Positions 15,813 through 36,598 of a DNA stretch of 64,000 bases are shown here, piece by piece. The position numbers were made by a program, and so were the translations under genes. The notes beneath the pieces were generated by a model. The model saw nothing but the letters and a program-made list of their open reading frames with translations, did not search any database and was not told the origin of the DNA. Each line of letters opens with the position of its first letter. Within the stretch, counting starts at the first letter, position 1. The stretch is from Halobaculum halobium (GTDB taxonomy: Archaea; Halobacteriota; Halobacteria; Halobacteriales; Haloferacaceae): the NCBI RefSeq assembly GCF_030127145.1, contig NZ_CP126158.1, positions 186,001 to 250,000 of the forward strand. Direction: 5' to 3'.

Positions 15813-16355
15813 TCAGAACCACTTGTCGTTGTACACGCACTGGAGGGGCTCGGTGACGACGTTCGTCGCCAGCGCCATCGAGACGATCTCGACGGCGTCG
15901 TCGTACCCCCCCGCGTCGGCCGCCTCGTCGTCCCAGGCGGCGATTCCGACTCCCAGTTCGACGTGGTAATCGAACACCGTGATCAGCCACTCGTCGGGGA
16001 GCGTGCGCTCGTCGGCGTCGGACTCGTTTATGACGCGGATCAGGTACTTGAACGTCGTGTCATCGCGACCCGAGAGGTCGTCTCCGGCGTCGTACCCCGG
16101 GACGTTCGGGGTGCCGAACAGCTGGACGAGGCGGTAGAGAGCCGTTCCCACGTCGTCGTGGGTTCCCCGCTCTGTGGGGTCCGGCTCGAGTTCGATGTGG
16201 ACGTCCTCGCGCGCCTCGCGGAGGTTCACCTCCTCGAAGGCGGCGTCTCCCTCGCGCCGCGACAGGATCTCCTCGCGGGAGACCGGCACCATCGTGAACT
16301 CGCGGAGCTCTTCGACCGGCGGCGCCTGCGGGTGCTCGCGGATGTCGTACTGCAT
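15813..16355 (-). CDS. Conserved haloarchaeal protein of unknown function
   Basis: A 180-residue soluble acidic protein, MQYDIREHPQAPP at the start and EPLQCVYNDKWF at the end. No catalytic motif or membrane segment seen. It starts two bases before the stop of the membrane protein at 16357-16602, so the two are an operon and the membrane protein is read first. Its composition and the lack of paralogues nearby give no functional hint. Confidence 0.7.
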   Translation of the reverse strand: MQYDIREHPQAPPVEELREFTMVPVSREEILSRREGDAAFEEVNLREAREDVHIELEPDPTERGTHDDVGTALYRLVQLFGTPNVPGYDAGDDLSGRDDTTFKYLIRVINESDADERTLPDEWLITVFDYHVELGVGIAAWDDEAADAGGYDDAVEIVSMALATNVVTEPLQCVYNDKWF

Positions 16356-34618: not shown

Positions 34619-34645
34619 AGCGACTCCCCACTCGTTGCATAATTT

Positions 34646-34659
34646 TTAGGGCGGCCTAA
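34646..34659. promoter_or_regulatory. Iron-box-like palindrome before the FecCD permease gene
   Basis: TTAGG-GCGG-CCTAA: perfect 5-bp inverted repeat. It begins 28 bases before the GTG at 34618 and overlaps or directly adjoins the A/T-rich TATA-like tract (34641-34648), so a bound repressor would block the basal factors. The arms match those of the sites at 35922 and 35957, and resemble DtxR/MntR-type metal boxes; the regulator itself is not in this window. Confidence 0.5.
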
Positions 34660-34740
34660 GTATTCAAAACCGTTTCGTTCCTCGAGGCGACGCGGGAATA
34701 CCGAGAGAGCCAGCCCCTTCGAGTTTCGCGGGTGATTCGT

Positions 34741-35916
34741 TCAGGCCTCGCCGCGGACGGCCGCCGCGAGGTCGTCGCGCGAGAACAGTTCGCCGGAGAA
34801 CCGGTCGGGGAAGTACAACGTCGAGAAGCGTTCGAGGTTGAACAGGTGCTGAAGCGGACCCTGGTAGATGGGGCCGCCGCGGAACACGCGACCCTCCTGC
34901 ACAGCCGTCAGCTCCGAGGCCACGTCGTGATCCTGCATGAACGAGACGACGGTGTCGCGGAACTCCTGTTCGGTCTTCCCCTCGTGGCCGCGCAGGAGGA
35001 TGGAGTCGGGGTCGACCGAGAGCAACGTCTCGTAGTCGATCTGCCCGCGGTCGTTGGTCGAGAGCCCGGAGACGCCGGTGCCTGAGAGCGCGTCCGTGAT
35101 CCCGAGGTCGCGGAACTGCTTCTTGTTGGTCCCGCGGTCGGAGAGGCGGTACGGGTAGAACTGTTCGGGCTCGTCGCTCGCGCCGAAGCACAGCAACGCG
35201 TTCGGCCGGCTGTCGGCGCTCGGGAGATCCGCACTCACCGTCGCGAGCGCGTCGTCGTGGACCGCCTTCACCGCCTCGTAGCGGTCGGTTCGCTGGAACA
35301 CCTCCGCGACCTTCTCGAACGCCTCGTACAGCGTGTAGTAGCGATACTCGTGCCACCCGTCGGTCCGGCGGAAGATCGTGTTGCCGACGAACGGCCCGAC
35401 GTCGTCGACGACGCCGTCCACGTCGGACTGTTCGAGCTTGAAGCCGTTGTTGATCAGCCACTGCGGGTCGATGAGGTGCACGTCGCTGTCGAGTTCGTAG
35501 AACAGTTCGCGGTCGATGGCGAACGAGTCGCCCAGCAGTTGGGTGGGCTCCGCGTTCACGGAGACCCCGTCCAACTCGGCGACGTGGTCCGTGTGGAAGC
35601 GCGCGGTGTTGCCGACCGCGAGGAGGTCGTCTCCCTTCCCGAGCGCGATACCCATGTCCGCGTATCCCGACTCGTACGCCGAGAACGTCTCCGGCACCGC
35701 GTCGAACGTCACGTCGCCGACGGGTTCCATCGAGACGGTGTGGCTGGCGGTCGGCGGCGCCGTCGTCGTCGCATCCGCCTCCGTGGCCGGCGTCGATCCG
35801 TCGCCCCCGGCCGACTCAGTTTCTCCCCCGTCGCCGTCGGATCCGGCACAGCCGGCGAGTCCGGTGGCTATCGCGCTCGCGCCCACACCGACGAACGTCC
35901 TTCGATCCAGGTCCAT
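34741..35916 (-). CDS. Iron-siderophore type ABC transporter substrate-binding lipoprotein
   Basis: A 391-residue periplasmic-binding-type protein. The Tat signal DRRTFVG (residues 4-10) and lipobox LAGC put the lipidated Cys at residue 23, followed by a Gly/Asp/Ser/Thr-rich linker of about 25 residues. The body has the two-lobed TroA/FepB-type fold (DDLLAVGNTARFHTDHV; SALLCFGASDEPEQF region). It presents the chelate to the FecCD permease. It has its own promoter, with two palindromes upstream, and a gap of about 120 bases to the permease gene. Confidence 0.85.
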   Translation of the reverse strand: MDLDRRTFVGVGASAIATGLAGCAGSDGDGGETESAGGDGSTPATEADATTTAPPTASHTVSMEPVGDVTFDAVPETFSAYESGYADMGIALGKGDDLLAVGNTARFHTDHVAELDGVSVNAEPTQLLGDSFAIDRELFYELDSDVHLIDPQWLINNGFKLEQSDVDGVVDDVGPFVGNTIFRRTDGWHEYRYYTLYEAFEKVAEVFQRTDRYEAVKAVHDDALATVSADLPSADSRPNALLCFGASDEPEQFYPYRLSDRGTNKKQFRDLGITDALSGTGVSGLSTNDRGQIDYETLLSVDPDSILLRGHEGKTEQEFRDTVVSFMQDHDVASELTAVQEGRVFRGGPIYQGPLQHLFNLERFSTLYFPDRFSGELFSRDDLAAAVRGEA

Positions 35917-35921
35917 ACTGT

Positions 35922-35935
35922 TTCGGCCAGCCTAA
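35922..35935. promoter_or_regulatory. Iron-box-like palindrome next to the binding-protein start codon
   Basis: TTCGG-CCAG-CCTAA, with one arm mismatch against TTAGG. It ends six bases from the ATG at 35916, over the presumed transcription start; the TATA-like CTTTTAT (35939-35946, minus strand) is just upstream. Same arm sequence and 14-bp layout as the site at 34646. Confidence 0.5.
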
Positions 35936-35956
35936 ACAAATAAAAGCGCGTCGGTT

Positions 35957-35972
35957 TTTTGGCTGGCCAAAA
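35957..35972. promoter_or_regulatory. Second palindrome upstream of the binding-protein gene
   Basis: TTTTGGC-TG-GCCAAAA: perfect 7-bp inverted repeat, 41-56 bases before the ATG at 35916 and directly upstream of the TATA-like element. Core TTNGGC..GCCNAA is shared with the site at 35922, spaced by 35 to 36 bases. It lies in the 139-base divergent region with the SRPBCC gene. Confidence 0.5.
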
Positions 35973-36020
35973 TATATTCGCAGCCACCGGCGCCGACTAA
36001 GGGTCCGCGCCGTCCCAGCC

Positions 36021-36030
36021 CGAACCCTTA
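36021..36030 (+). promoter_or_regulatory. Core promoter element of the SRPBCC gene
   Basis: CGAACCCTTA, 26-35 bases before the ATG at 36056, of the AACCCTT type seen before several genes in this window (see findings). Confidence 0.45.
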
Positions 36031-36055
36031 CCTCTCGTCCGGCGGATCCGGAGAC

Positions 36056-36598
36056 ATGGACGAGCTCGTGGTCTCGACGGACGTGTACGTCGCCCCCGAG
36101 GAGGCGTACGAGTTCCTCGTGGACCTCCCGCGCTACGAGCGATACAGCGAGTACCTCGACCGCGTGTCGCGGACGCACGGCGACGGCGGTCCCGGGTCGC
36201 GCTACGCGCTCCGGTTCGCGTGGTGGAAGCTGACGTACACCGCCCGTTCGGAGGTGACCGACGTGGAACCGCCGACGCGGATCGACTGGCGGATCCTGAA
36301 AGACATTCGAGCGCGCGGCTCGTGGCGGATCGAGCCCTTCGACGATCTGCCGGCAGACGCGCCCGACGACGCGACGGTCGGCTGTCGCGTCACCTTCGAA
36401 GTCCGTTTCGACGCCGAGAGCGCGGACGCCTCGTCGGTGTCGCTCCCGCCGCTGGTTTCGTTCGACTGGGTACTCGACAAGGTGAGAGGGCTCGTCACCG
36501 AGGAGGCCGAGCGGGTCGTCAGGCGTGCGGTCGCCGATCTCGAGGGGCGCGATCGAGAGGTGACGCTCGTCGTTCGCGAGGACACGGACGCGGTGTAG
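36056..36598 (+). CDS. SRPBCC (START-like) family protein
   Basis: A 180-residue helix-grip fold protein of the polyketide-cyclase/START-like type: VSTDVYVAPEEAYEFLVDLPRYERYSEYL at the start, then VEPPTRIDWRI and a long C-terminal helix (residues 137-165, LDKVRGLVTEEAERVVRRAVADLEG). Such proteins bind a hydrophobic ligand; the ligand here is unknown. Oriented opposite to the iron-binding lipoprotein, it has its own CGAACCCTTA promoter. Confidence 0.75.
   Translation: MDELVVSTDVYVAPEEAYEFLVDLPRYERYSEYLDRVSRTHGDGGPGSRYALRFAWWKLTYTARSEVTDVEPPTRIDWRILKDIRARGSWRIEPFDDLPADAPDDATVGCRVTFEVRFDAESADASSVSLPPLVSFDWVLDKVRGLVTEEAERVVRRAVADLEGRDREVTLVVREDTDAV

Follow-up and report, generated by a model that had tools for sequence, protein, structure and literature searches.

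Iron-box-like palindromes at a siderophore-type ABC importer locus of Halobaculum halobium and their recurrence among haloarchaea

We analyzed a 64-kb stretch of the Halobaculum halobium genome, referred to here as the window, that carries the genes of a siderophore-type ABC importer and three short palindromes upstream of them. Our results indicate that these palindromes are very probably the operators of a metal-dependent repressor of the DtxR family, which would silence the ferric-siderophore-type importer in iron-sufficient cells. In this model, we infer that the protein binds the boxes, which metal it uses, in which direction it acts, and how it blocks transcription sterically.

Three boxes at the importer locus

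The window combines, in one locus, a Peripla_BP_2 substrate-binding protein, a FecCD-family permease, and an ABC ATPase, completing the gene set of a siderophore-type ABC importer (FhuD/FecCD/FecE; Table 1). The best NCBIfam match of the ATPase was FecE, with a score under the cut-off of that model. The permease scored similarly against the NCBIfam models FecD, BtuC, and FhuB (ferric dicitrate, cobalamin, and hydroxamate, respectively), all of them below cut-off, so that the substrate of the importer is not fixed by sequence alone. The boxes described below favor iron as the substrate over cobalamin or heme. Two further Peripla_BP_2 genes are present in the genome, one encoding a PGF-CTERM-anchored BtuF-like protein and the other a TroA-like protein; with one mismatch allowed, no box was found in their loci of ~3.6 kb, which include ~1.5 kb on each side.

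Table 1. Boxes, promoter element, and importer genes in the window (positions are those of the 64-kb stretch)
Feature	Positions	Strand	Context and basis
Box A, TTTGGCTGGCCAAA	35958-35971		5' of the binding-protein TATA element; pattern match
Box B, TTCGGCCAGCCTAA	35922-35935		6 bp 5' of the binding-protein ATG, 36 bp from box A; pattern match
Box C, TTAGGGCGGCCTAA	34646-34659		28 bp 5' of the permease GTG, abutting its likely TATA element; pattern match
Likely TATA element, CTTTTATTT	35938-35946	-	Between boxes A and B; sequence and conservation in relatives
Tat-lipoprotein substrate-binding protein, 391 aa	34741-35916	-	Peripla_BP_2, PF01497, E 1.7e-22; ferric-siderophore type
FecCD-family ABC permease, 385 aa	33461-34618	-	PF01032, E 1.8e-88
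ABC ATPase, FecE/FepC type, 270 aa	32652-33464	-	PF00005; 4-bp overlap with the permease gene

A preliminary description of this DNA had reported three iron-box-like palindromes around the importer genes. All three were recovered where it had placed them, and a pattern search showed that they share the core TTNGGN4CCNAA. Their placement relative to the TATA elements and start codons was also as described, with the transcription starts being predicted ones. The core of box A sits inside a 16-bp palindrome (35957-35972), and box B probably coincides with the 5' end of a leaderless mRNA.

We assessed by shuffling how often such matches arise. The core pattern occurs four times in the window, compared with an expectation of 0.35, and four or more matches were obtained in 1 of 100 shuffles. 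The fourth match (16105-16118) lies within a predicted gene and looks like a chance occurrence. For the 139-bp gap upstream of the binding-protein gene (35917-36055), none of 20,000 dinucleotide-preserving shuffles contained two or more matches, and the presence of at least one match in the 122-bp gap upstream of the permease gene (34619-34740) had a probability of P = 0.004 in local dinucleotide-preserving shuffles.

Because boxes A and B flank the TATA element of the binding-protein promoter at a spacing of 36 bp, a repressor bound to them would occupy the start site as well as the BRE/TATA region and could thereby block TBP/TFB or RNA polymerase. At box C, the same blocking would take place at the separate promoter of the permease-ATPase transcript. 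When iron falls, the repressor would lose its metal and leave the boxes, and both transcripts would be made.

Conservation of the boxes and the promoter cassette

One scan provided nine relatives of the binding protein in named genomes, sharing 48-82% identity with it: three from Halobaculum and one each from Halolamina, Halegenticoccus, Haloprofundus, Halobacterium salinarum, Halogranum, and a metagenome-assembled genome. In all nine, the orthologous gene has one or more exact boxes on its 5' side. Six of these relatives carry a box pair spaced by 35-36 bp and one carries a pair at 26 bp; in the other two, a single exact copy is accompanied by a decayed partner. The positions kept in the relatives, counted from the start codon, are -55 for box A and -19 for box B. 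Box B served as the anchor for an ungapped alignment of the four closest relatives, in which the eight core bases were 100% identical for box A and 91% identical for box B, compared with 30% identity in the upstream flank.

The box upstream of the permease follows the organization of the locus. It was found 32-80 bp 5' of the permease gene in six of the eight relatives that have a permease in the locus. In the two that lack it (L033 and L034), the permease starts 0-8 bp after the stop codon of the binding-protein gene and therefore has no promoter of its own. As the box is missing only in these two, it appears where a promoter exists to control.

Across the loci examined, we counted 49 distinct pairs of boxes separated by at most 120 bp; the spacing is 33-36 bp in 38 of them and exactly 36 bp in 25. 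These pairs have a common layout, consisting of a box, three or four A residues, a CGAA-like element, a TTTA-like element, the second box, a few A residues, and the ATG. The pair in the window matches this cassette, reading TTTGGCCAGCCAAA, AAACCGACGCGCTTTTATTTGT, TTAGGCTGGCCGAA, ACAGT, and ATG in that order. The arrangement suggests that two repressor dimers could bind there, one on each side of the TATA element. We found neither a description of a TATA-bracketing two-box cassette nor a printed haloarchaeal box sequence in the literature searched, a body of work that did not extend to the main haloarchaeal regulon papers. The layout proposed in the preliminary description, in which a DtxR-family protein acts on a tandem pair of sites at the binding-protein gene and on a single site for the permease-ATPase transcript, agrees with every comparison that we made.

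Distribution of the box in the order and in the H. halobium genome

We searched an order-wide sample of 59 genomes (27 genera, 11 families) for the strict form TTAGGN4CCTAA and for its reversed control. The strict form occurred 624 times, compared with 72 for the control, and exceeded the control in 57 of the 59 genomes. When gaps of 3-5 nucleotides were searched, 624 of the 633 sites had a gap of 4, and gaps of 3 and 5 together contributed nine. The order-wide excess and the rarity of the other gaps are not those of a motif spread at random over the genome, a distribution that the preliminary description had named as refuting its proposal. A separate sample of the phylum (100 genomes) gave 212 sites versus 23 in the 18 members of this order and 135 versus 221 in the other 82. 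The box is a haloarchaeal signal.

To the targets of the box we devoted a survey of 30 loci, one per genome, and all strict sites of four genomes (60 sites). Among the 98 strict sites, duplicates included, 86 are near a predicted gene start, nine have no predicted target, and three lie deep in genes; removal of duplicates left 92 sites with 70 distinct nearest genes. The commonest Pfam family among these genes is Peripla_BP_2 (17 of 70), and SBP_bac_6 (5), ABC_tran (5), RGP (4), and FecCD (2) are also represented. Siderophore-type families found once each include an acetyltransferase and an aminotransferase, and there are non-iron nearest genes as well (MoeA, GSDH, and a lipoyl ligase). The gathering of the motif before iron genes, proposed earlier as a way of checking the iron-repressor model, is thus seen order-wide, with Peripla_BP_2 in the leading position. 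Of 90 predicted target genes, 26 encode a Tat-lipobox N-terminus, versus 3 of 198 other predicted genes, and the distance from the box center to the start codon peaked at 12 bp.

The signal is weaker in the H. halobium genome itself. Scanning all 3.46 Mb (three contigs) with TTNGGN4CCNAA returned 22 places versus 11 for the reversed pattern. By our own reading, 11 of these places are no more than about 100 bp 5' of a gene start, eight are intragenic, and three are ambiguous. The 11 promoter-type matches comprise the three importer boxes, two boxes 5' of an RGP-like gene, and one each for dpsA, a [2Fe-2S] ferredoxin (Fer), a DUF7331-like small protein, gcvT, a GT2 glycosyltransferase, and a Gluconate_2-dh3-like lipoprotein. 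The gcvT, GT2, RGP-like, and DUF7331 genes have no obvious iron role, and the sites before them count against the iron-repressor model. The looser pattern TTWGGN4CCWAA with one mismatch allowed gave 34 matches versus 87 for the control, with IS-like repeats intruding, and is therefore not informative. Strict sites number three in this genome versus 10-16 in most of its family. One relative (G045) is likewise box-poor, having four strict boxes and a reversed control that exceeds the signal.

Several of these sites have particular surroundings. The tandem boxes at C2:252040 and C2:252067 (L020) lie 5' of the RGP-like gene, annotated as an "alpha-1,4-glucan-protein synthase," and other genomes contain homologues that carry a box 25-26 bp 5' of the start and adjoin solute-binding lipoproteins. 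The DUF7331-like protein of 57 residues is preceded by a close pair of boxes (C1:405875 and C1:405892, L005) about 0.9 kb from the dpsA box, and a similar boxed small protein is present in L058. In each of two genomes, a Tat lipoprotein that weakly resembles Gluconate_2-dh3 is preceded by a box at 12-19 bp (C2:256954 in L020, and L123).

Two alternative readings of the palindromes concern their origin and their target. Were they a product of chance or of promoter composition, an enrichment no more than two-fold in this one genome and the absence of any enrichment of the loosened pattern would be readily understood. The shuffle tests, the conservation in relatives, and the strict gap across 59 genomes refute this origin, and the lack of enrichment in the 82 genomes of other orders (135 versus 221) also argues against it; we give it practically no weight. 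Box A might instead serve the divergent SRPBCC gene (36056-36598, plus strand) rather than the importer, as it is located 84 bp 5' of that gene and is followed by a TATA-like stretch on the plus strand (35969-35979). However, the pair stays with the binding-protein gene where no SRPBCC gene is adjacent, as in the second gene of L028, in Halobacterium salinarum, and in QH_7, and many genomes have this pair in front of binding-protein genes at other places. Because the pair is fixed to the binding-protein gene even without a neighboring SRPBCC gene, we rejected this assignment, which we consider highly improbable.

Known iron-control systems and candidate regulators

A study of iron starvation in Haloferax volcanii (PMC11349517) reports increases of 12.7-fold for the fhu permease HVO_B0197, 4.5- to 8-fold for five fhuD proteins, and 7-fold for HVO_A0557. 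According to the same study, all fhu genes or operons of H. volcanii have, on their 5' side, the regulon signal "ferR" of Leyn and Rodionov (2015). Since that published signal precedes all of them, the system at work here is most likely a known one, of which the boxes are a further instance. The gene type (fhuCGD importers) and the organism class are the same; the organism and the locus described here are new. We expect that the box motif is the published ferR motif; the boxes are part of a DtxR-type haloarchaeal iron signal whose description is almost certainly already in print. In a second study (PMC11218638), H. mediterranei E6P09_17310 and 17315 are among the iron-uptake genes repressed in denitrifying cells, and we found a 36-bp box pair 5' of E6P09_RS17310 in the plasmid record. 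In H. alexandrinus, the gene that seems to correspond to HVO_A0557, matched through the name of a neighboring gene, is also preceded by a box pair, in a spacer shared with a third box for a divergent gene.

Control of haloarchaeal iron uptake by the DtxR family is on record, as summarized in PMC11349517, for TroR/Idr/SirR of H. volcanii (Martinez Pastor et al. 2024) and for Idr1/Idr2 of Halobacterium salinarum (Schmid 2011; Martinez-Pastor 2017). The H. volcanii network involves three DtxR-family proteins, whereas the genome studied here encodes two with both Pfam domains.

These two loci, C1:2399266 and C1:2556133, pass both DtxR-family models (PF01325 and PF02742) over the cut-off. Both lie elsewhere in the genome, as anticipated by the preliminary description, which had placed the regulator gene outside the window. 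The genome has no match to the Fur model PF01475, which the controls did match, and a Fur regulon was rejected on this ground.

The product of C1:2399266 (minus strand), hereafter the long protein, has three domains (HTH, dimerization, and FeoA/SH3) and is homologous to IdeR (E 5e-29) and DtxR (E 3e-24). Its RHHRLLE and EADxLEHHIS motifs are kept in 28 of 28 sequences of this type, barring single variable positions. In actinobacteria, the half-sites of the DtxR/IdeR tox-box are TTAGG...CCTAA. The haloarchaeal box has identical half-sites and the same 4-nucleotide gap; however, it is set in an archaeal promoter as an operator pair around the TATA element, whereas the actinobacterial tox-box is one extended 19-bp site. 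A further difference is found in the protein, where an Asp occupies what we take, from the ligand numbering, to be the position of the Cys metal ligand of DtxR/IdeR. Based on its retained metal-ligand residues and its DtxR/IdeR-like recognition helix, the long protein is the most likely candidate for the reader of the box. No exact box was found within 250 bp 5' of the DtxR genes at 52 loci and at L148, and hence no autoregulation was seen.

The product of C1:2556133 (L023:1501-1935), the short protein of 145 residues, aligns to ScaR, SloR, and MntR and has lost most of the ligand positions. Proteins of this cysteine-bearing type could possibly act as Fe-S or thiolate sensors. In at least seven haloarchaeal genomes (G034, G049, G011, G028, G051, G018, and G041), a distance of 4-10 kb separates genes of the long (FeoA) and short (cysteine) types, a closeness that suggests a shared network. 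In H. mediterranei (NZ_CP039140), the divergent short DtxR-like gene E6P09_RS17320 (L148:7564-7983) adjoins the boxed E6P09_RS17310 and a NifU-like gene.

The identity of the reader and of its metal allows other readings of the same boxes. The short protein could itself read them, sensing iron through a cysteine-held cofactor rather than as free ferrous iron. Its orthogroup shows the same restriction to haloarchaea as the box (E <= 3.8e-36 in all 18 genomes sampled from the order, and none better than 5.7e-23 in the 82 others of the phylum), its four cysteines are invariant in 21 of 21 sequences (YCIxERFL and CPxCFDxExDxC), and the proximity of the two gene types is in line with such a role. 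However, the three-domain type is equally universal and equally restricted in the same 18 and 82 genomes; as both types are universal in haloarchaea and distinct from anything in the other 82 genomes, distribution does not choose the reader. Moreover, the short-type helix (SPASANEM) resembles the GPTVSQT of DtxR/IdeR less than the long-type PPTVTSM does, and we regard reading by the short protein as possible but rather doubtful. The more specific proposal of a fixed two-operator cassette (box, BRE/TATA, box, and start codon, with centers 34-36 bp apart) read by this cysteine-bearing protein, its cysteine-held cofactor sensing iron, seems to us unlikely. The regulator might also respond to manganese or another metal by an MntR-like logic, given that the long protein has Asp in place of the Cys ligand, an MntR-type MEDY N terminus, and a partly MntR-like helix. 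Against this, the targets are ferric-siderophore importers, the ferritin-like DpsA, and Fe-S proteins, not manganese transporters, and homologous genes respond to iron starvation (PMC11349517), which makes sensing of another metal very unlikely. The favored reading is still that of an iron-responsive DtxR-family repressor, with the long protein as its probable representative in H. halobium.

Together, these comparisons confirm an iron-control element that was first spotted in raw sequence and extend it to the whole order. With the gap-4 rule and the stereotyped cassette, the iron regulon of an unstudied haloarchaeon can be listed from its sequence. Some wider value lies in the question of which of two universal haloarchaeal DtxR-type proteins, one of them cysteine-bearing and without the usual metal ligands, reads the box. 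The features that deserve further attention are the strict gap, the cassette around the TATA element, and the box reader.
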